From the NCBI GenBank assembly GCA_015039465.1, contig MU130307.1, forward strand, positions 1-30,248: 30,248 nt of DNA, written 5' to 3'. The stretch is from Phlegmacium glaucopus. Lineage: Eukaryota > Basidiomycota > Agaricomycetes > Agaricales > Cortinariaceae. Below the pieces are notes generated by a model. That model ran no database searches, was not told the DNA's origin, and saw only the letters and a list, made by a program, of their open reading frames with translations. Position 1 is the first letter of the stretch. Each line of letters begins with the position of its first letter. Below, one piece after another: positions 4,960 through 30,248 of this stretch. The position numbers and the translations under genes are program-made.

Positions 4960-7900
4960 TCAGTAGCCGAAGTGCACATATGGAACCCATGTCAAGAATG
5001 CGGCGTCACCTTCTCGAAGCCTCTCTCGAACCTTCCTAGTAGCGTAATCCAACGCATAGGCTGCCCGAGTGCTGTCCAATCCATCCAAACCCTTCTCTCT
5101 AAGCAAATATTCATAGAACTCTGTCGCAAACATTGGCCCATGCTTATCGGAAATACTCCACATCGTACCAACCACACCTCGATAACCAGCAGCAAGCATA
5201 CCAGCTGCAAGATGGACGACTTCCTCCGATAATTTGAGGTCTCCTTTGCTTGTCTGGCATGCTGAAAGGAAAGCCAAGTCCAGGTTTGGGATTTGCTCCT
5301 TCATGATCTCGAGCAGCTCCAAGCGCCCATCATGGAGACACAGGCCGCTCTCAAGAGGCTCCTGGACATCTTGCACTCCATGGCACGCAAAGTGAGCCCA
5401 GCTACGGGACTTCATCTCTGCCTTCACCTTCTCTCTAGTTGCCTTGGAGTCCTCCAACAACAATGCATCAACAGCGGTTCCTTTCATCAATGCTTCGAGG
5501 GCATGCGTCTCTGTTCGGGTTGAGGGTATGGAGGAAAGACCCGGAGTGTTAGGTTGGCTGATAAGGACGAGGCTGGTACATTTGGAAGGGGTGGATGATG
5601 CAATAAGTTTATCGTTAAGGGAGCGGACAGTTGGTGTATACGACGAAACCACGAAATCGGAAATGCATGATCCTGGCTGGTATGCTGAGCCATATACCCC
5701 AGCTGCGTGGAGTGGAAGAAATGCGAGTGGACCGGTTGGGCACCACCATATACGGCGGCGAACTGAAAGATTTGGAGGGGACTGCAAAAGATCAGTATAA
5801 ATAAGTTGACAATAGGCAACGCCTTACAGAGTATCCTAGCGCTTTGAGAATTGGTTGGACAACTTTACACCAAAGTTCATTTAGAACAACCAACATAGAT
5901 GATGGGTGAAGGGAGACACGCTGAGGCATGCGATCATGATCTTCCACCTTCCGTTGCTTGAGTAGGCCAAATTGAAGGGTCTTCTGTAGTTGCTCTGCTT
6001 GCACGAGACTGAAGTTCTCTAGAGGGATATGCAGAGGCTCCTCGTTCTCAGCTATAAGAGCCAAGGCATCACATCGGGTGCTGTGAATGTTGAAGATGAT
6101 GACTGGACCATCAGAAGGTAATGAGGACAGGAAGTCGCTGGCCTTAGGTGGTTGAAGAAAGTCATGGAAATCCGGAAGATCCCGAATCTCTTTGAGAAGT
6201 TGCCTGTACTCTGTAGCATGGAGGGTATGATTTCTAGTGGCATCCTGAAGACGAATGTCTTCTGCAAGTGTAGCATGCGAAGAAGGAATAGACAGTGCTG
6301 AACGAGTTCCGTAGGACTCTAAAGCACTTGCAACCTGTATGAAGTGATTGGCCAAGGATGGATTCTTGATGCGGAGATTGTCAATTGGTGTACGGAGTTG
6401 GTTGAGTTGATTCCACACCAAGCAGCGGCCTTGCTCAAGCCATTGAAGTGCAAGATCGGCTTTATTGAAACAGAGAGCGGTAGCCACAGCAGATCCCACA
6501 AGATCAGAATAGTCATGAAGGTTAGCATGACGGCGATGGATTGTTTGTTCCAACCCAGCAACCTCTGAGAGCAGACTAATGGCATTCGCAAAATCAATCA
6601 AGCAGTGAGAGTCATCATAGACTGAGGATAGCTGGGCCGCACGGATGGCAGACTTCAGACGAATGGATGGGGTGCCATTTGCGTCAGCAGCCCGACGATA
6701 TGAAGCAACACTGTTTTGGATATCAGGGAAATGATTAGCGTGTTGGAAGCGGTACCAGTAAGAATGGCCAAGATTTTTGAGGTAAGATGGAAGGTTTGCA
6801 TTGCCAGAAGGTGTGGATTCAACAGCATTCTGGCAGTGGGATATGGCATGGTCAATATCCTGGATGTCACCAGTGTATTTAAAGCGATATGAGCATGAAG
6901 CTCCAAGGTTGTTGAACAAACTTGCACAGTCAGCATGGCCAGAAGGAGTGGATTCAACAGCAGTCTGGTGGTGGGATAGGGCATGGTCAATATCATGGAG
7001 GTCACCAGTGTGTCGAAAACGAAGTAAGTATGAACTTCCAAGGCTGTTGAACCAACGGTGAGCATGGCCAGAAGGAGCAGATTCAACAGCCTTCTGGTGG
7101 TGGGATATGGCATAGTTGATATCCTGGAGGTTGCCAGTGCATTCAAAGCGACATGAGTATGAACTCCCAAGGTTGCCAAACAAAGTCGGAAGGTGCGCAT
7201 GGCCAGAAGGAGTGGATTCAACAGCAGTCTGGTGATGGGATAGGGCATGGTCTATATCATGGAGGTTACCAGTGTGTTGAAAGCGACGTAAGTATGAACT
7301 TCCAAGGTTGTTGAACCAACTTGGAAGGTCAGCATGGCCAGAAGAAGCAGATTTAACAGCCTTCTGGTGGTGGTATATGGCATGGTCAATATCCTGGAGG
7401 TTGCCAATGCATTCAAAGCGACATAAGTATGAATTTCCAAGGTTGTTGAACCGACTTGGAAGGTGAGCATGGCCAGAAGGAGTGGATTCAACAGCCTTCT
7501 GGTGGTGAGATATAGCATGGTCAATATCCTGGAGGTTACCAGTGTGTTCAAAGCAACGTGAGTATGAACTTCCAAGGTTGTCAAACAAAATTGGAAGGAG
7601 AGCATGGCCAGAAGGAATGCATTCAATAGCACTCTGGTGGTAGGATATTGCTTGGTCAATATCCTGGAGGTTGCCAGTGTGTTTAAAGCGAAGTGAGTAT
7701 GAAGTTCCAATGTTATTGAATCTGTTTGGAAGGTCAGCATGGCCAAATGGAGCAGATTCAACAGCCATCTGGTGGTAGGATATGGCATGGTCAATATCCT
7801 GCAGGTTGCCAGTGCGTTCAAAGCAAAGTGCATATGAATTTCCAAGGTTGTTGAACAAATTTGAAAGGTTAGGATGGCTGGAAGGAGTGGATCCAACAGC

Positions 7901-8079
7901 ATTCTGGTGGAGGGATATGGCATGGTCAATATCCTGGAGGTCACCAGTGTGTTTAAAGCGACATGCATATGAAGTTCCAAGGTTGTTGAACCAACTCAGA
8001 AGCTCAGAATGGCCAGAAGGGGTGGATTGGACAGCATTCTGGTGGTGAGATATGGCATGGTCAATATCCTGGAGGTTAC
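4960..8079 (-). CDS. TPR-CHAT protein, 3' part (ten TPR units and CHAT domain)
   Basis: Two exons: 8079-5828 and 5781-4960, separated by a 46-nt intron. Exon 1 begins inside a TPR-like array of 45-residue units (consensus NLQDIDHAISHHQ...STPSGHADLP...NNLGSSY..RF.HTG). A helical linker follows (LQWLEQGRCLVWNQLNQLRTP), as is typical between TPRs and CHAT domains. Exon 2 is the CHAT (caspase/HetF-like) domain, with His in HFACHG (codon 5380-5382) and Cys in LSACQTSKG (5257-5259), so the expected catalytic pair is present. It ends VPYVHFGY and a TGA. The family acts as caspase-like proteases or signalling modules; the substrate here is unknown. The copia insertion at 8080 removed the 5' part (13607-14704). 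The frame stays open into the LTR to 8110, but only a GTG is there, so this half has no ATG of its own at the junction. Confidence 0.9.
5782..5827 (-). other. 46-nt intron of the TPR-CHAT gene
   Basis: On the minus strand the intron starts GTAAGG at 5827, has a CTGAT branch-like motif about 12 nt before the end, and ends TTTTGCAG at 5782. It is phase 0: the Ser codon TCT (5830-5828) is followed by TCC (5781-5779). Removing it joins the linker to the CHAT exon in one frame; the unspliced frame ends soon after. Length and signals fit basidiomycete introns. Confidence 0.92.
6731..8074 (-). repeat. Ten TPR-like 45-residue units (135-bp repeat)
   Basis: Ten consecutive units of 45 residues, one of 43, show strong conservation of DIDHAIS.HQ, SGHA and NNLG.SY. 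Changes concentrate at a few positions in each unit, as expected for a ligand-contact surface. The period is 135 bp, so the array is also a coding minisatellite prone to unequal exchange. A degenerate unit (HFPDIQNSVASYRRA) follows at the C-terminal side. Four more units lie beyond the copia at 13610-14149. Confidence 0.93.
8075..8079. repeat. Target-site duplication, left copy
   Basis: GTTAC directly precedes the 5' LTR and recurs at 13607-13611 directly after the 3' LTR. Five bases is the usual copia duplication. On the minus strand it is part of a conserved Gly-Asn (GGT AAC) in the TPR unit. Confidence 0.97.
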
Positions 8080-8150
8080 TGTTGGTATTTGGAGTAAGCA
8101 AAAAGGCCACCGTAGACTAAGTAAGGGAAGGGCCACCGAAGTCAAATATG

Positions 8151-8387: not shown

Positions 8388-8442
8388 CTTAATCTAAGCA
8401 TGTCTATACATAGACTACAACTTAGCGGTTCAGATTTCTACA

Positions 8443-8452
8443 GGTTATGGGC
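8443..8452 (+). promoter_or_regulatory. Primer-binding site (half-tRNA type)
   Basis: GGTTATGGGC begins directly after the LTR. It is complementary to GCCCATAACC of the anticodon arm of initiator methionine tRNA. Drosophila copia uses the same internal-fragment priming rather than the tRNA 3' end. Ten bases match; beyond that, comparison needs the host tRNA. Confidence 0.75.
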
Positions 8453-8561
8453 TTGCATCACGCTTTATACAAGACGTGATGTAGACATCTTTTCCGCGAA
8501 ACAAATACCGGAGTTATTTCTCTTTTGTTCTGGCAACTTCATTATTCTTCTGTCTGCAACT

Positions 8562-11500
8562 ATGACTGTCCCCTCCGAAAATGAGCCGTCTTCCCTCACA
8601 AACCACCTTACACTTGCCGACGCCTCTAAACCTATTATAACTAAGGAAACTATATCCTTCACCTTCAAAGGCGACCGACTCGACAAAGATGGGGGCAACT
8701 GGAAAAAGTGGAGCTCCGAAATTCTGGACCTCCTTGACATGGCTGGTCTCGGCTCCCACCTAACTGATGATATCTCTAAAGCACCCCCACCCGATGTTCA
8801 GCCGAACGCACATCGCAACTGGGTGTCCAACGACCGCTCTGTCCGGGGTTTTCTGCGATCAAGCCTTTCTCCCACTGAGAGAGATCTCGTGTCAGCATTT
8901 ACTGGCGCTAAAGAAACATGGGAAAAATTGGAATCCTACCATCTCGAGGAGGGACCGATAAAGCAAGCAAACCTCATCCAAAGTGCTCTCACTACTCGTA
9001 TTGACCGCGATGATCAAATGATGATCAAAGTCCGGCGTCTACGGGACGACTTACGTCGGGCGTTCCGTATGCAAGGAGGAATTAATGAGGAAACATTCAT
9101 CTCCATCGTCGTTCTCCAGGCTCTTGGTGCTGGGCTTGACCACTCCCGCGCCATTATCCAAAGAGATTTCCGTGCTTCCACTGCCTCTTCCCCTTACACT
9201 GTCGATAATCTTGTGGACTTCCTAGAACAGGAGTATCAGATGCTGATGGGAGATAAACAACGGGTTCCAAAGGGCGACTTCACGGTCGCTTTAGCCACCC
9301 AATCTGTCCAAAAAGGCAAAGCTCCCGTCATGTGTGCAAATTGCAAGCGACCTGGGCATACGGCCCCATGGTGCGTCCGTCCAAATGGAGGAATGGCTGG
9401 GAAAACAATTGAAGAGTCGAAGGAGGCCCGGCGAAAAGACAGGGAATCGAAGACCACTGTTCCCCCTGCTCCCACTTCTGGTTCTTCTCGTGTCCAGGTT
9501 TCTGTTCGAGGAACCGATGGACGCTCATACCTCATGTATACCGATACATCGTCACTCACCCCCTTAACTGAGACCCACCCTACCACCAGGGAGTTTGCTG
9601 GAATCGCATCCACGGAACCGGAACAACTTCCTGCAGATGACATTGAATACTACGGTTTCATGGCAGCGATTCAGGAGGAGCAACATGACCCGAAAGAAGA
9701 ATACAAAGCTAACGTCAACTGGGATGACTACTCAACAGAGAGCGTCAACACGACTGCGTCCGCATTTACCCACTCTGCCGTCAGCAACCCCTTCTTTCTA
9801 GACTCAGGCGCAAGCTCTGCAATCAGCCCAGTCAAAAGCGACTTCACCAACCTTCGACCTTTCTCTCGTAAGGTAAAAGGAATAGGTGGTTCAGTTATTG
9901 AAGCATTTGGTATTGGAAACATCAAAATTCCGGTAGCAAAGAACTCTTATCTATGGCTCAAGAACGCATTATATATACCAAACGCTACCGTACGATTAAT
10001 TTCGGTATCATCAATAACCAAAGACTCCAACGCATTAGTCCACTTCGACCACCTCACATGCTGGATAACCGATCGTACATCCGGGAAGACGATGGCACAT
10101 GGATCCTTAATCCATGGAAAGAACCTCTATGCACTTGACATCTATACAAGCGACGCTGCATACTCAATCACTCATTCTCCCAACCTCGAGACGTGGCATC
10201 GTCGTCTAGGTCATGCAAATTTTCAAGCCATCACTAATATGGCAAGAAAGGGCATGATTGACGGTATGCCCACCTCCTTTCCTGCCACACCACCTAAATG
10301 TGACTCATGTATCCTTGGGAAACAGACGAAGACGCCAGTTCCCAAAATACGAAAGGAGGAGAGCAAAGCAACTAGAAAGCTGGAAATAGTTTGGGTGGAC
10401 TTGACTGGGCCCATGGCAGTGGAATCACGAACAGGGAACAAGTATGTTATGAATATTGTTGATGACTACTCGAGTTACCCATGGTCCATCCTCTTAAAAT
10501 CAAAAAATGAAGCCTTCCATTATCTAAAAGCATGGGAGATCGCTAGAGAAAAAGAAACAGGATTATCAGTGGGAAAGTACAGGACAGATAACGGCGAATT
10601 GAAGACTGATGAAATGAAGCAATGGATCGAATCACGAGGAACACAGCACGAATTCACTGCACCATACACTTCGGCCCACATCGGACGAGTGGAACGCATG
10701 CATAGAACTCTAATGGGCAAGGCACGCACCATGCGAATCCATGCCAACCTACCCCCTTTCCTATGGGATGAACTGTACCTAACAGCATCACACCTACATG
10801 CAAAAACAATTACCCGCTCCTTAGGCGATGTTACCCCATATGAAAAATGGCACAACCGTAAACCCGACTACTCATACATGCGCGAAATTGGATGTAAGGT
10901 TTTCACACTCATACTAAATCGTAACAATCCAAAAATACATGAACGATCAGTTGAATGTGTCCTAATCGGTTACGACCTTAACGCCAAGAGCTATCGATGT
11001 TACCACCGCCCTACAAGACAAGTCGTCAGCTCATATCACGTCCGGTTCATCGAATCACATGAAGGCCATACACAATCAATCCCTGCAGGAGCTCCCGTTC
11101 CAACCTCCATATCAGAAAACACACCTGATCATGAGGACCCCATTCAATCAGAAGATGAAATTCGACCAATAAACAAAAATAGACCTGCCTATCACGAACC
11201 TATCGATGTACTTGAAACACCACCAACTGAGGACGCCAATCACAATACTCAAAACAACCATGTGGGCAACTCAGATATAGACATACCTAGGCGATCTTCC
11301 CGATTGGCACAAAAGAAATCTAACATGGCTGCCGGCCTGATGCGTCCCAACCGACTCGAAAATGCTATACGGCAATCGAAAGAAAGCGCAGAAAGGATAG
11401 TCCAAAACAAACTAAATCACACAGACAATTCCGAATCAAACAAATCAGGGGAGGAGCTTGTGGAAAAAGGGGAGAGCGAGGCAATTAAGGAACTCTGTGA

Positions 11501-13226
11501 TGTATTCGATCATCTAAAACTGGACACACCTGATGAATCAGAAATACAGAGAACTGATCGCATATTAGCAGCCATAGCGACGATTCCTGAAGCAAGTTTC
11601 GACAACTTCGATCTTGATGAGCCGAAAACCTGGCAGGAAGCTAAGGCATCTCCATATAGCGCCCAATGGAAGGAAGGTTACCTTGAAGAATTGGCCTCAT
11701 TGAAAGAAATGGGGGTCTACAAACTTATTCATCGGTCACAGGTACCTCCCACTACAAAAATTCGCAAGGGGCGCCCCGTGTTTAGGCTAAAACGAAACTC
11801 GGATGGTCTCCCTGTCAGATGGAAAGTACGTTTGGTATTCAAAGGTTTTGAGCAAATTTATGGCAAAGACTATACTAGCACGACCTCACCGACCGCACGC
11901 ATGGAATCTTGGCGTATACTTTTGCACCTCGCGGCTACACTCGATTGGGATGCCCAACAAATTGATGTCAAAACGGCCTTCCTTTATGGCCTATTGCCAG
12001 ATGACGAGGTCCAGTACATGGAGCAACCCATCGAATTTGAAGAAACCGGAAAGGAGGAGTACGTGTGGATGCTGCAACGAGGCCTATATGGAATGAAGCA
12101 GAGCGGGAGGATATGGAATAAGACGATGAACGACGCTATGTTGGCTTGGGGCTTCACCCGCTTGACTTGCGAATCATGCATCTACTACAGGAATACTCCG
12201 GCAGGTACAGTAATCTCTGCTGTCCATGTTGACGATTTTCTCTCAATAGCAAGCTCACGATCCGAAAATGAGAACTTCAAGTCCCAAATGAAATCATTAT
12301 GGACGATATCGGATCTTGGCGATGCCAAATACTGCGTCGGCATCGCTATCCTACGGGATAGACAAACGAGAACAATCTACCTATCCCAAACAGCACTTAT
12401 CGACAAAGTTGTTCAACAATTCGGTCAGAACCATAGCCACCCGGTTTCGACACCAATGGACCCGGGTCTGAAACTCAGTCGCCCTGACAAGTCATCATTA
12501 ACTCCTTTAGATGCCGACCGACTAGCGAAAACTCCCTACCGATCCCTAGTCGGCTGTCTCATTTACTTGGCCGTTGGCACTCGCCCCGACATCTCCTATG
12601 CGGTACAGCAGCTGTCTCAATTCCTCGACAACTACTCGTACGTCCATTGGAATGCAGCAGTACGAGTTGTACGATACCTAAAAGGTACTAGGTCATTACA
12701 ACTGAAACTTGGGGGTACCAATGAGGTAAAACTACTTGGTTTTACTGACTCGGACTGGGGCAATTGCCCAGACACCAGACGAAGCGTCGGTGGGTATTGT
12801 TTTACATTAGGATCGGGTCCAATCTGTTGGCAGGCACGACGACAACGCACCGTTGCTACCTCAACATGCGAAGCAGAATATACAGCAGCGTTTGAGGCAG
12901 CCAAGGAAGCGCTTTGGCTGCGAACTTTATTGTCCGGCATTCAGCTCCCACCCAACTCCCCTACAACTATCCTATGTGACAACAATGCAGCCATAACGCT
13001 ATCTGAAGATCCGGCTTTCCACGCTAGGGTTAAGCATTTTGACATCCGATATCACTTCCTACGCGAACGCGTACAGTCTGGCGACATTGCCCTGTCCTAC
13101 ATCAACACAAAGGACAACATTGCCGATATCTTCACGAAACCACTGGATGCTACCAAATTCACTCGGCTTCGCACTTTCTTGGGCATCACTTGCCACGATC
13201 CCATGCGAGGAGGAGTATCTACTTAG
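8562..13226 (+). CDS. Copia gag-pol polyprotein, 1554 residues, intact
   Basis: Start chosen at the ATG at 8562, after the primer-binding site. The frame is open back to an ATG at 8400 inside the LTR, which would add 54 residues, but that start lies in the LTR and is less likely. Order of domains: Gag-like region; CCHC zinc knuckle (9333-9374, C-X2-C-X4-H-X4-C); aspartic protease with LDSGAS (about 9798); HHCC integrase N-domain with CDSCILGK (about 10300); integrase core with Asp (10398), Asp (10587) and Glu (10692); copia-type reverse transcriptase with DVKTAFLYG and HVDD (12225-12236); RNase H with TDSDWG and FTKPLD near the end. All key residues are present and there are no stops or frameshifts. 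It makes the proteins for particle assembly, reverse transcription and integration. Gag and Pol share one frame, so the Gag:Pol ratio must be set some other way. Confidence 0.97.
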   Translation: MTVPSENEPSSLTNHLTLADASKPIITKETISFTFKGDRLDKDGGNWKKWSSEILDLLDMAGLGSHLTDDISKAPPPDVQPNAHRNWVSNDRSVRGFLRSSLSPTERDLVSAFTGAKETWEKLESYHLEEGPIKQANLIQSALTTRIDRDDQMMIKVRRLRDDLRRAFRMQGGINEETFISIVVLQALGAGLDHSRAIIQRDFRASTASSPYTVDNLVDFLEQEYQMLMGDKQRVPKGDFTVALATQSVQKGKAPVMCANCKRPGHTAPWCVRPNGGMAGKTIEESKEARRKDRESKTTVPPAPTSGSSRVQVSVRGTDGRSYLMYTDTSSLTPLTETHPTTREFAGIASTEPEQLPADDIEYYGFMAAIQEEQHDPKEEYKANVNWDDYSTESVNTTASAFTHSAVSNPFFLDSGASSAISPVKSDFTNLRPFSRKVKGIGGSVIEAFGIGNIKIPVAKNSYLWLKNALYIPNATVRLISVSSITKDSNALVHFDHLTCWITDRTSGKTMAHGSLIHGKNLYALDIYTSDAAYSITHSPNLETWHRRLGHANFQAITNMARKGMIDGMPTSFPATPPKCDSCILGKQTKTPVPKIRKEESKATRKLEIVWVDLTGPMAVESRTGNKYVMNIVDDYSSYPWSILLKSKNEAFHYLKAWEIAREKETGLSVGKYRTDNGELKTDEMKQWIESRGTQHEFTAPYTSAHIGRVERMHRTLMGKARTMRIHANLPPFLWDELYLTASHLHAKTITRSLGDVTPYEKWHNRKPDYSYMREIGCKVFTLILNRNNPKIHERSVECVLIGYDLNAKSYRCYHRPTRQVVSSYHVRFIESHEGHTQSIPAGAPVPTSISENTPDHEDPIQSEDEIRPINKNRPAYHEPIDVLETPPTEDANHNTQNNHVGNSDIDIPRRSSRLAQKKSNMAAGLMRPNRLENAIRQSKESAERIVQNKLNHTDNSESNKSGEELVEKGESEAIKELCDVFDHLKLDTPDESEIQRTDRILAAIATIPEASFDNFDLDEPKTWQEAKASPYSAQWKEGYLEELASLKEMGVYKLIHRSQVPPTTKIRKGRPVFRLKRNSDGLPVRWKVRLVFKGFEQIYGKDYTSTTSPTARMESWRILLHLAATLDWDAQQIDVKTAFLYGLLPDDEVQYMEQPIEFEETGKEEYVWMLQRGLYGMKQSGRIWNKTMNDAMLAWGFTRLTCESCIYYRNTPAGTVISAVHVDDFLSIASSRSENENFKSQMKSLWTISDLGDAKYCVGIAILRDRQTRTIYLSQTALIDKVVQQFGQNHSHPVSTPMDPGLKLSRPDKSSLTPLDADRLAKTPYRSLVGCLIYLAVGTRPDISYAVQQLSQFLDNYSYVHWNAAVRVVRYLKGTRSLQLKLGGTNEVKLLGFTDSDWGNCPDTRRSVGGYCFTLGSGPICWQARRQRTVATSTCEAEYTAAFEAAKEALWLRTLLSGIQLPPNSPTTILCDNNAAITLSEDPAFHARVKHFDIRYHFLRERVQSGDIALSYINTKDNIADIFTKPLDATKFTRLRTFLGITCHDPMRGGVST

Positions 13227-13243: not shown

Positions 13244-13606
13244 TGTTGGTATTTGGAGTAAGCAAAAAGGCCACCGTAGACTAAGTAAGGGAAGGGCCAC
13301 CGAAGTCAAATATGGATAGTGGCATTACGGGCCACTATCATTGTTTCTACAAGTATATATACTACATAGACTTATTGCTCTACCTCAGTCCGTTGTATCG
13401 TGACTGAGGTGAGCAATCTACTAAACTTACTTTACCTTACTATGCTTACCGTTGCCTAGTCATTGTGATCTTAATCACTATCTAGGTACGGGAAAATATA
13501 TTTAGTCCGTTGTATCGTGACTGAGTCATTGTGATCTTAATCACTATCTAGCTTAATCTAAGCATGTCTATACATAGACTACAACTTAGCGGTTCAGATT
13601 TCTACA
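13244..13606 (+). repeat. 3' LTR of the copia element
   Basis: 363 bp, read as identical to 8080-8442. Read on the minus strand it supplies the stop that ends the 5' half of the TPR-CHAT frame at 13586, six codons into the LTR. Confidence 0.97.
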
Positions 13607-13611
13607 GTTAC
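13607..13611. repeat. Target-site duplication, right copy
   Basis: GTTAC directly follows the 3' LTR and matches 8075-8079. Confidence 0.97.
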
Positions 13612-14704
13612 CAGTGTGTTCAAAGCGACATTGGTATGAATTTCCAAGGTTGTTGAAGCAATTTGGAAGGTCAACATGGCCAGAAGGAGTGGATTCAACA
13701 GCATTCTGGTGGTAATATATGGCATGGTCAATATCCTGGAGGTCACCAGTGCACCTAAAGCGAGATAAGTATGAACTTCCAAGGTTGCTGAACCGATTTG
13801 GAAGGTCAGCATGGCCAGAAGGAGTGGATTCAACAGCATTCTGGTGGTGGGATATGGCCTGGTCAATATCCTGGAGGTTGCCAGTGCGTTGAAAGCAACA
13901 TAAGTATGAAGTTCCAAGGTTGTAGACAAAAACTGGAAGGTTAGCATGACCAGAAGGAGTGGATTGGACAGCATTCTGGTGGTGGGATATGGCATGGCCA
14001 ATATCCTGGAGGTCAGCAGTGTGTTCAAAGCGATATATGTACAAATTTCCAAGGGTGTTCAAATTTTTCGGAAGGTCAGTATGACCAGAAGGGGTGGATT
14101 CAACAGCATTCTGGAGGTGGAATATAGCATGGTCAATATCCTGGAGCTGGCCGGTGTGTTTGAAGTGACTGAAGTACAACATTCCAAGGTTGTTGGAGAC
14201 GGTGGCAAGAACATTAACACCAGTAGTTTCCAGTGATGTTGGTTGGTGCGACACATTGCTGGGGGGTGGTAGTGCATATGGGAGATCGTGCTCAGAGATC
14301 GAGATGGCTGAGCCTTTGAGTGGCGCTCCGGGCATTGAACTATGTTCAGGTTTTGTGACTGCCTCTGTCCCTTGTACCATGCTTCGCATGGATTCAAGGT
14401 ATGGAATTATTGGGTTCTGACTCGGAGTTGTGCTTTCCGAAGATCCTCCGTGCTGGAAGACGGTGATTACGCCTTGAAGTTGGTTGTCATCATCAATGAT
14501 TGACGTTGGGATTTTGAGTGGTCGTTCAGGGCTTGAAGTCGTCTGTCTCCGCTTCTTGGGGGTATCCCAGGTGTCTAGAACTGGGGTTGGAGTACCCTGT
14601 TGTGTGGTGTTTTCGGTCGCGGGTTCGAGCGGTGGTGGTTGTCCTTGACTGTGGGCGAAGCGGGCTGCGATCTCAACTTCGTCAGTATGGTTGAACGTGG
14701 CCAT
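13607..14704 (-). CDS. TPR-CHAT protein, 5' part (leader and four TPR units)
   Basis: Start chosen at the ATG 14704-14702 (G at -3, G at +4); the frame extends to a TTG at 14749, which is not a plausible eukaryotic start. About 185 residues of Pro/Ser/Thr-rich, low-complexity leader (MATFNHTDEVEIAARFAH, then TPKKRRQTT) precede a helical stretch and four TPR-like 45-residue units. The KKRR cluster could be a nuclear signal. The 3' LTR then interrupts at Gly-Asn, and translation would stop at 13586 after CRNLNR. Without the copia and one duplicated GTTAC, the frame continues exactly into 8074, giving about 1388 residues after splicing. As it stands this half encodes TPRs without the CHAT effector. 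No NACHT or NB-ARC domain is visible. Confidence 0.88.
13610..14149 (-). repeat. Four TPR-like 45-residue units
   Basis: Four units of exactly 135 bp match the ten at 6731-8074 and belong to the same array, which had 14 units before the insertion. The most N-terminal unit (QLQDIDHAIFHLQNAVES) and its partner with IYRFEHTA are the most divergent, as usual at the ends of homogenised arrays. Confidence 0.92.
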
Positions 14705-14782
14705 TGCGGATGCTGGAAAGACGGATAGATTGGCAGAGCGTTTTTGCAAGACAAAAGTATGTGTAAGGAGTATTGAAGTTGG

Positions 14783-14790
14783 GTATTTAT
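14783..14790 (-). promoter_or_regulatory. Possible TATA box of the TPR-CHAT gene
   Basis: On the minus strand ATAAATAC lies about 80 bp upstream of the ATG at 14704, followed by a pyrimidine-rich stretch that would suit a start site. There is no experimental support. Confidence 0.35.
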
Positions 14791-15196
14791 GAGTTTACGT
14801 CCTAGTATATGGAATCAACACTGCCTGCGTCATGTTGGCTTTGTGCTTTCATTGCAACATGCACGGCAAGAAACGAGGGCAAGAAATGCATGGCCGTGGC
14901 ATTGCATTGAACGGTATAGCACAGGTAAGATATGACTGAAATTCATATCTTAGTAATACCATAATGTCGGTCGAGATTGATATCAAGCACTTGCCTCCTA
15001 GATCCATGATCTCCGGAGTCTATGCTCATGCGCTATTCATTACTGCAGACCATGATCGCATCCCCATCTTTATATGCCGCAGAACAGATCCTCACCAGAT
15101 ACTGAGGCCCCGAGGCGTTGGTGAGGCGGGAAAGCGCAAGGAAGAAAAACAATTCTCATATACAGGGTGGTCAAGAGCCTACGGTTTCCCGGTAAT
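14791..15196. other. Upstream region of the TPR-CHAT gene, no gene seen
   Basis: This stretch separates the TPR-CHAT start from the partial paralogue at 15197. Only short frames without support are present. It probably carries the promoter. Confidence 0.4.
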
Positions 15197-27625: not shown

Positions 27626-28170
27626 CTAGTGTTGTTTCAATAACAGTGGCTTTGACTCTTTTGCTGCAAGTTCCATTTTCTGACCTGGAGTCAAACCAGC
27701 ATACCAATTGGGATCGTAGAAGTTGAGAGGGAGTCCCGGAATTGCTTTTCTCAATGTCTCCCGCCCATCTTGACGTCTTCGAACTCGGGGCGGATTGCCT
27801 GCCCTTGTATTCCCATAAGCATTTGTAGTATTGCGGTCGTGGTCGATATCCATGAGCTTCCTAACCATTTCCTTACCACGCCATGGAACAATTTTTGCTC
27901 GATACACTGAATTTCCCAAGTCATCTGTATCGCTGTCATCTGAACTCATTGGCCCAGCACCCAAAGTGTCCAACGCCATATAGTTGTTCCTCCAGAGGAC
28001 AACTTCCTTGGTTTCTGGCTCTTCTGGATTTTCTGGTAGATGCCCAAGAGTTATTGTGAGTCTACTCTCAAATAACTGGTTCCACTCAGCATGTAGTCTG
28101 GTGAAATGTGATCCCTACTCACCTCTTTATGGGGGTCGGCAATGTCACATATAGCCGTGGCAATGTTTTG
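27626..28170 (-). CDS. 3' part of an Agaricomycete repeat-associated protein gene
   Basis: Exons at 28170-28123 (5' end open) and 28076-27626 on the minus strand, with a 46-nt intron between. The peptide runs ICDIADPHKE, then LFESRLTITLGHLPENPEE, TKEVVLWRNNYMAL, an acidic MSSDDSDTDDLG, VPWRGKEMVRKLMDIDHDR, NTRAGNPPRVRRRQDG, and GLPLNFYDPNWYAGLT. It ends KPLLLKQH. I recall similar C-termini in many Agaricomycete hypothetical proteins next to mobile elements; function unknown. There are no stops in the visible part. The gene is cut on its 5' side: the frame closes at 28171-28173, and the complement-only block begins about 130 bp further on. Confidence 0.7.
28077..28122 (-). other. 46-nt intron
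   Basis: On the minus strand a consensus GTGAGT donor at 28122 and a GGAACCAG acceptor ending at 28077. It joins HKE to LFESR in frame, phase 0. Confidence 0.75.
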
Positions 28171-28304
28171 TCATGTCACGTCACACAACCGGTCACAAAA
28201 CCTGGTACAACATGTTTTCAATGAGTTCTGCACTGTTTCACAAGATTTTTTCACTGTATAAAGCATGATATGGTATATTTATAAGCTGTACAACACTTTC
28301 AGAT

Positions 28305-30248
28305 GCTCAGAGGTATACTATCAGGTGAACGGTTTCTTGTTTCATCGAAGTGTGCAGAATAGTTACAGATAAGTTTCGAACGTCCTTACGTACGTCTAGT
28401 GACACGATTTCTTTTTTCTCTAATACTGAACTACCCCTTCTTCTTTTGTCTTCGTCAAGTGGTTCATGAGCCATTTTCTTCCTAATAACTACTATGTTTA
28501 CTTCTCGAATACGGAAAAAAAGAAAGACGTGTATTTCTTTACCACCTTTTTCGACCACCTCTCCGACTAACCTTGTTGGAACTACTTAGACGTGTTTTTC
28601 TCGTGTTTCGTCGTTACAACCTTTCCGAATGTTGTCTAGAACCAGTTCTACGTAAACTTTTTGATAGACTATTCCTCTTTCGATAAAAGTTCGATAAAGT
28701 GTTTCGTCGTTACAACCTTTTCGAGTGTTGTCTAGAATTAGTTCTACGTGAACTTTTTGATATGACTATTCCTCTTTCGATCAAAGTTCGATAAACAGAC
28801 CCAACCTACACCCCCAGTATTCCTAGACTCTTTTGACATGCACCTCGTATCCGACCTCGGTGGACAGAATGAAGGTTTGTTTAAGTTACTTCGGTATTAA
28901 GTCCTCCGACGATTTCTTCTGTTTTTACTAAGACTCCGACGGGTTGCTCGACAATTTTTAAGGAGTGTTCCACCATAATTTCGTTGTTTTGAACGTCCAC
29001 TATAGAACTTGTTGTTTTTACTGTTTAGAGCCGTAGTACTAGTTAAGGCATGGACCACCCTTTGTTTTCATCCGTTTTTTAAGTGGAAAGGACTATGCAG
29101 GTTATGTACAAAAGTTAGGGTAACACTCCGACGTCGTCGTAATTGTGAGGTGGTACTATTTAAACAACTTATAGAATTTATACGTTTTCTGTTTTTCCTC
29201 ACACGTACAATATCGGTATACCTCCTTTTAAACACCTTTCGGGAAGTACTATAAGGTTGATCTTGTCTTGAACGACAAAACCGAGAAATAAGAGTTCGTC
29301 AATCGGTAGGGATATACTCTCGTTATGTTTTCTACGTTCAAATTTACGAGATTTGGAACCTGGGAACGTATTTTTCTAACTTAGTAAAAACCACGCTTAA
29401 TATCTTCTAGGATGTAAAGACCAACCACTTGTACAAAGTGTAGTCGAAATCAACGTAAGACATGACCTCGTGACCACTGGACCTTCGCAAAGTGTAGACT
29501 TAAACGTGGACCACCGAATTAACTACTCCGATGTGTCCTTCTTTCTCTAAATCGTACCTACGGAAGTTGATTACTATAATTACTTCCTCGTGACCCTAGT
29601 AAGGTACAAGACTACGCCGCAGTTGGAGTTGAATGAGAAGATGTTATGTTACGTGTCTGTTACAAGAAGGCCTTGTTATGACCCCGTAAATACTTACTTT
29701 ACAAGAGTCTATGTTGAGTAGTTATATAGGCTCGTCAAAGTTCTCTCTCTCTATGAAGACTCTTCCTCGCAGAACTCTTTAACAAGTCGTATGACTCCTT
29801 TTTTAACGGTTCTTCCATCGACGATTTTGTTTCGTATGTCTTGCACGTCAAGTTCAACGTCTAGCATAAAGGTTTCAACGTGATTAAAAGTTCCTCCTAC
29901 TCTAACTGTTCGACTTTCCTCTTTTTGACTTCCTAGTAAAAGTCCGAAAGTTCTTTCGTCCACGAGGTTTAGAACCGTGTTAATTGTCGTTCAGTTTTCA
30001 ACGTCTCTTCTCTCTTCGATAGTTTCGTCGTTAGTCTAGTATATTGTTCCCTCTTACCTTTAACAGTGGTTTTATACATCTAGGACCTTATGTCTTACTT
30101 CTACTTCCTCTCCATAAACTACCTATACTACTAAAAGTGAGGAGTCTACTCTTATCACCGACCCTCCTACTTATCATTACATCATTACGATCAATCTACT
30201 TCTAAAGATGAACAAGAGTAAAAACTTGGTATAAAATCCATGATAAAG
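28305..30248. other. Block that encodes a protein only when complemented without reversal
   Basis: Neither strand read normally holds a frame longer than about 83 codons. If each base is complemented and the order kept, long coding stretches appear from about 28309 to a stop at 30173-30175. Examples: KLAGMHADHCAKEKRDYD, MVEKAGGEADWNNLDESAQ, a duplicated KAAMLE.LTTDL.QDA.EKL, GGIKATKLAGDILNNKNDK, FPDTSNTCFQSHCEAAAAL, RTELAVLALYSQAVSHPYM, FAPGGLIDEATQEERDLAWM, EGALGSFHVLMRRQPQLTLL and KLKGEKLKDHFQAFKKAG. I recall this order from a multicopy Agaricomycete protein family that behaves like a mobile-element gene. In complement space it is itself a relic, with four frame changes near 28765, 29342, 29455 and 29800. 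In 28561-29040 I count 27 CG and 2 GC as written, which becomes normal CpG depletion after complementing. Confidence 0.85.

Follow-up and report, generated by a model that had tools for sequence, protein, structure and literature searches.

Reversed letter order in a dispersed repeat beside an assembly gap of Phlegmacium glaucopus, likely a product of gap filling

What could leave nearly 2 kb of fungal DNA complemented but not reversed? The question is raised by the right end of the window, the whole 30,248-nucleotide stretch of Phlegmacium glaucopus DNA analysed here (C107:1-30248), in which a sequence-only reading had placed such a block at 28305-30248. The composition of this region differs from that of the sequence before it, with CG and GC dinucleotides standing at 93:17 in 28305-30248 (93:16 within 28316-30248, the extent at which we arrive below) as compared with 1065:1411 in 1-28300. 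The excess of CG over GC that had been read in 28561-29040 is real, with a count of 27:3 and not the 27:2 first given. A direction score, in which each 5-mer is compared with its own reversal in windows of 500 bases, is above zero in 51 of the 56 windows that precede 28001, whereas the three windows that fall inside the block score strongly negative. Long reading frames are likewise confined to the plain complement of 28305-30248, as had been claimed, where the longest stop-free frame has 303 aa (further frames have 153, 132, and 129 aa), while the longest reaches 82 aa as written, 92 aa in the reverse complement, and 96 aa in the plain reverse. Frame length was nevertheless dropped as proof of a flip, because 53 overlapping stretches of 1-28300, taken as controls, give a maximum frame in either complement or reverse that averages 120 aa and reaches 322 aa.

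More telling is what the complement matches. A DNA search of the same genome (60.5 Mb in 259 contigs) with the plain complement of 28305-30248 yielded 77 matches when 40 of the 62 candidates had been scored, and ten places match this complement at 94-99% over approximately query bases 1139-1944, that is, over the last 0.8 kb. With so many normally written copies agreeing with its plain complement, the block is one copy of a dispersed repeat, and that complement reads as the coding strand of the repeat. These alignments also fix where the flip begins. With query base 1 at 28305, the first aligned query base is 12 in twelve plain-complement matches and 13 in one further match (window 28316-28317), while the flank aligns normally as far as 28315; bases 28305-28315 therefore belong to the correctly written flank. 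The block thus spans 28316-30248 (1933 bases, no strand assigned), continuing in reversed and uncomplemented letter order the same repeat copy whose correctly written end, of approximately 186 bp, lies at 28130-28315 on the minus strand and matches many repeat copies at 97-99%. Immediately after the block comes a run of N of 19.5 kb (C107:30249-49784), and such runs are taken here to be assembly gaps, although stretches withheld from view would also stand as N.

At the protein level, a search with 131 aa of the plain complement returns three hits in other records, the best with an E value of 4.9e-41, whereas the frame at 29006-29251, the only as-written frame searched, has none among 4 candidates; this is the outcome that the sequence-only reading had anticipated. 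One of the three, annotated as hypothetical protein BYT27DRAFT_7103258, partial [Phlegmacium glaucopus], agrees at 85% with a stretch covering 34% of the query. The repeat thus resembles the BYT27DRAFT_7103258 gene through its complement piece, while its three gene pieces on C130 match no Pfam family. Nor does Pfam place the as-written frame (part 29006-29248) in any family, and with four pieces of the plain complement nothing rises above the cut-off, the only match being Ccdc124 at an E value of 0.24. Upstream of the intact repeat gene, a frame at L052 (C130:190397-190729) matches the end of a Plavaka transposase (PF18759, E value 7e-16, 36 residues), and five of 13 other copies compared have the element in common only from L052:2287 onward, so the frame is no more than a possible part of that element.

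Could the block as written instead be a genuine repeat family of its own, whose complement makes sense by chance? As written, it does match ten other places in the genome (11 of 11 candidates scored), some of them at 98-99%, as a separate family would. All ten, however, show a reversed-like stretch, nine adjoin a run of N within approximately 15 bases, and the plain complement matches far more places than the block as written. The protein hits to other records, found with the complement and not with the as-written frame searched, tell against such a family as well, and it is refuted by normal copies, to which the complement is 98-99% identical as DNA, leaving this explanation a negligible probability.

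Compared with the intact copy on C130, the block carries two local differences. A unit of approximately 97 bp that is single in C130 is present as an imperfect tandem duplication at 28603-28795 (28603-28698 and 28699-28795, 92.8% alike; no strand assigned), which could reflect either a faulty consensus in the fill or genuine variation. At 29442/29443 (no strand assigned), approximately 91 bp of the C130 copy, also present in a comparable block on C198, are absent. A spliced intron was considered for the missing segment and ruled out, as it lacks GT...AG ends.

The nature of the flip is revealed at its seam. We compared eleven loci with repeat copies for the window and for the blocks on C105 and C198. 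In the window, the last flank base (28315) and the base that opens the gap end once this is reversed (30248, the final base ahead of the N run, no strand assigned) are exactly consecutive in nine of the eleven copies; a tenth shows a single mismatch at the seam, and in the eleventh (L011) the flank does not align as far as the seam. At C105, the corresponding bases are exactly consecutive in ten of eleven copies and off by a base in one, while at C198 they are consecutive in all eleven, with one unaligned base at the seam. The base at the gap edge is thus the true neighbour of the flank at all three loci tested. Because the bases at 28315 and 30248 are adjacent in intact copies, the block has been flipped in place, its letters reversed without being complemented, and on a two-stranded sequence such a reversal reads as "complemented but not reversed". 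The earlier description is in this respect borne out, by the seam and by the complement matches to normal copies, with its left boundary moved from 28305 to 28316. As judged from these alignments, all three loci tested have a block whose sequence belongs where it stands but whose letters run backwards.

This arrangement bears on two biological comparisons. Like a chromosomal inversion, the block is turned between fixed ends; unlike an inversion, which yields a reverse complement, it is reversed without complementing. A two-strand search with the as-written block matched only reversed-like places, and no reverse-complement match to normal copies was encountered. The second comparison is with a true plain complement, as parallel-strand copying or "swinger" polymerization (A exchanged with T, C with G) would make, and here the letter rule fits exactly. 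Such copying would nevertheless preserve the order of its template across the seam, whereas here the order is flipped in place and the gap-edge base is the flank's true neighbour. Moreover, the blocks end at runs of N, and copying has no reason to stop at assembly gaps. We know of no polymerase that makes a plain complement, and we regard a biological origin of this kind as extremely improbable. Swinger DNA under the A<->T + C<->G rule has been claimed from GenBank entries, according to the available portion of the work of Seligmann (PMC4942731). The resemblance to swinger DNA as described there is that a stretch matches normal sequence only after plain complementing; the difference is that the present stretch is flipped in place at assembly gaps, for which an unusual polymerase is unneeded.

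The same arrangement recurs elsewhere in the genome, where the length of the flipped block varies by locus from approximately 0.6 to 2.7 kb. Among the ten places matched by the block as written, the tenth, on C224, has no adjoining run of N. There, the block on both sides of a 580-bp repeat matches C237 only after complementing, and lies between two normally written flanks. The fit to C237, which is without the 580-bp repeat, is within a base at one end, while approximately 91 bases of C237 are unrepresented at the other. On this alignment, the most fitting reading of C224 is a gap that was closed with a flipped fill. The 580-bp repeat (C224:119795-120375, L041) is itself of very high copy number and stands here in flipped form, its block's complement having 1128 first-look candidates. 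Had it been inserted normally into flipped DNA, the flipped DNA would have to be real. This possibility was rejected, because the complement of the repeat matches 34 places at 94-97% (40 scored of the 1128 candidates) and the flanking C224 block matches C237 only when complemented. As written, the 580-bp repeat has six other full-length matches at 92-97%, together with shorter and weaker ones. Two of these six were inspected: the copy on C145 begins exactly at a gap edge, and that on C147 lies at a scaffold end and has a weak direction score. That nested repeats are flipped together with their block is a further point against a biological plain complement.

Gap edges were also scored for direction, against 93 background windows of 800 bases taken from gap-free stretches. 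Among 11 distinct edges not picked by an as-written match, three fall below all background windows (C105 right, C167 left, and C171 right), three are borderline low (C107 right, C216 right, and C240 left), three look normal (C167 right, C189 right, and C171 left), and two have fewer than 130 bases (C198 left and C240 right); as only the C171 and C240 gaps come from stretches chosen regardless of the repeat (two of six such stretches had a gap), these counts give no genome-wide rate. Flipped fill affects some gap edges, not every one. On the right side of the 19.5-kb N run that borders the window block, C107:49785-52250 (L047) is weakly reversed-like over approximately 2.4 kb and is perhaps another flipped fill. 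The gap, the in-place reversal, and the recurrence are additions to what had been seen in the window. An error of data or assembly had been proposed as the likeliest cause, and this reading is supported because the block ends exactly at N, its gap-edge base is the neighbour of the flank, and other gaps carry similar blocks. Taken together, these comparisons point strongly to an artefact of assembly, found at several gaps in this genome, and not to a biological feature.

At which step of assembly could this have happened? When the C105 block is read in true order from the flank, its identity to the C130 copy is 95-100% over the first 800 bases and falls to 72-81% beyond them; mismatches total 185, against 99 insertions and 1 deletion, and the final 443 bases of the block remain unaligned. 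Such decay with distance from the contig edge would be expected where an extension is built from uncorrected reads that thin out. The window and C198 blocks, on the other hand, stay near 98% with no decay from the flank, apart from local indels (the 97-bp duplication and approximately 91-bp loss in the window block, and a small insertion at C198). PacBio errors are expected to comprise more insertions than mismatches, so that the C105 block, in which mismatches outnumber insertions, does not follow the textbook PacBio pattern. The available text of a paper that includes C. glaucopus states that its hybrid genomes, as a group, were assembled by ALLPATHS-LG with PBJelly patching from PacBio reads (PMC7550596). 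PBJelly, in the excerpted text of its description, starts at the contig edge, extends into gaps, and leaves the remaining N's, using reads with approximately 15% error (PMC3504050).

We therefore favour a gap filler that would use PacBio reads to lengthen contigs into the adjoining gaps; where a fill came from the opposite strand, it would be complemented while the reversal was omitted. In this light, what stands between flank and N at 28316-30248 is part of a dispersed repeat with its letters reversed, and it very probably stems from long-read gap filling and not from the organism, to judge by its match to intact copies, by the seam at three loci, and by the reversed-like stretches at other gaps. 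The program responsible is probably PBJelly, although with less assurance than the artefact itself. The blocks share with flank extension of the PBJelly type, as given in that excerpt, new sequence that grows from the contig edge into the gap while the rest of the N's remain (PMC3504050); they differ in that the inserted letters are in reversed order. The open-licence literature searched, PMC6733440 included, yielded, as far as its text was available, no report of a reversed but uncomplemented fault in assemblies or in PBJelly.

The same letters would result had a scaffolder or later file handling placed a whole contig in reverse, with the gap filler uninvolved, and this too would leave blocks at gap edges. 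Against this, there is no N between flank and block at 28315/28316. The seam instead lies inside one repeat copy, of which the flipped piece is exactly the next piece. The differing block lengths among loci and the fall in quality away from the flank at C105 also speak against reversal of whole contigs, which we consider very improbable.

The significance of a flipped gap fill is one of data quality, and its biological interest is low. Backwards sequence at several gaps would be accepted at face value by gene callers, repeat libraries, and studies of orphan genes. Its signature, an in-place reversal bounded by N, is nevertheless easy to scan for, and offers a plain alternative to test wherever plain-complement DNA is claimed as biology. 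It is conceivable, if rather doubtful, that a single error in gap filling put backwards sequence into many public hybrid drafts of that era, so that databases came to contain nonsense genes and at least part of the nuclear "A<->T + C<->G swinger DNA" described as biology has this source. If this were true, scoring gap edges for k-mer direction would reveal the backwards fills.

The remainder of the window holds several long frames of its own. On the plus strand, 8388-13226 contains an open frame of 1612 aa with the domains of a copia-type retrotransposon (gag, pre-integrase, integrase core, and RVT_2). On the minus strand, tetratricopeptide-repeat frames of 774 aa and 402 aa lie at 4960-8116 and 13586-14794, respectively, the first of which overlaps a 287-aa frame with a CHAT domain.
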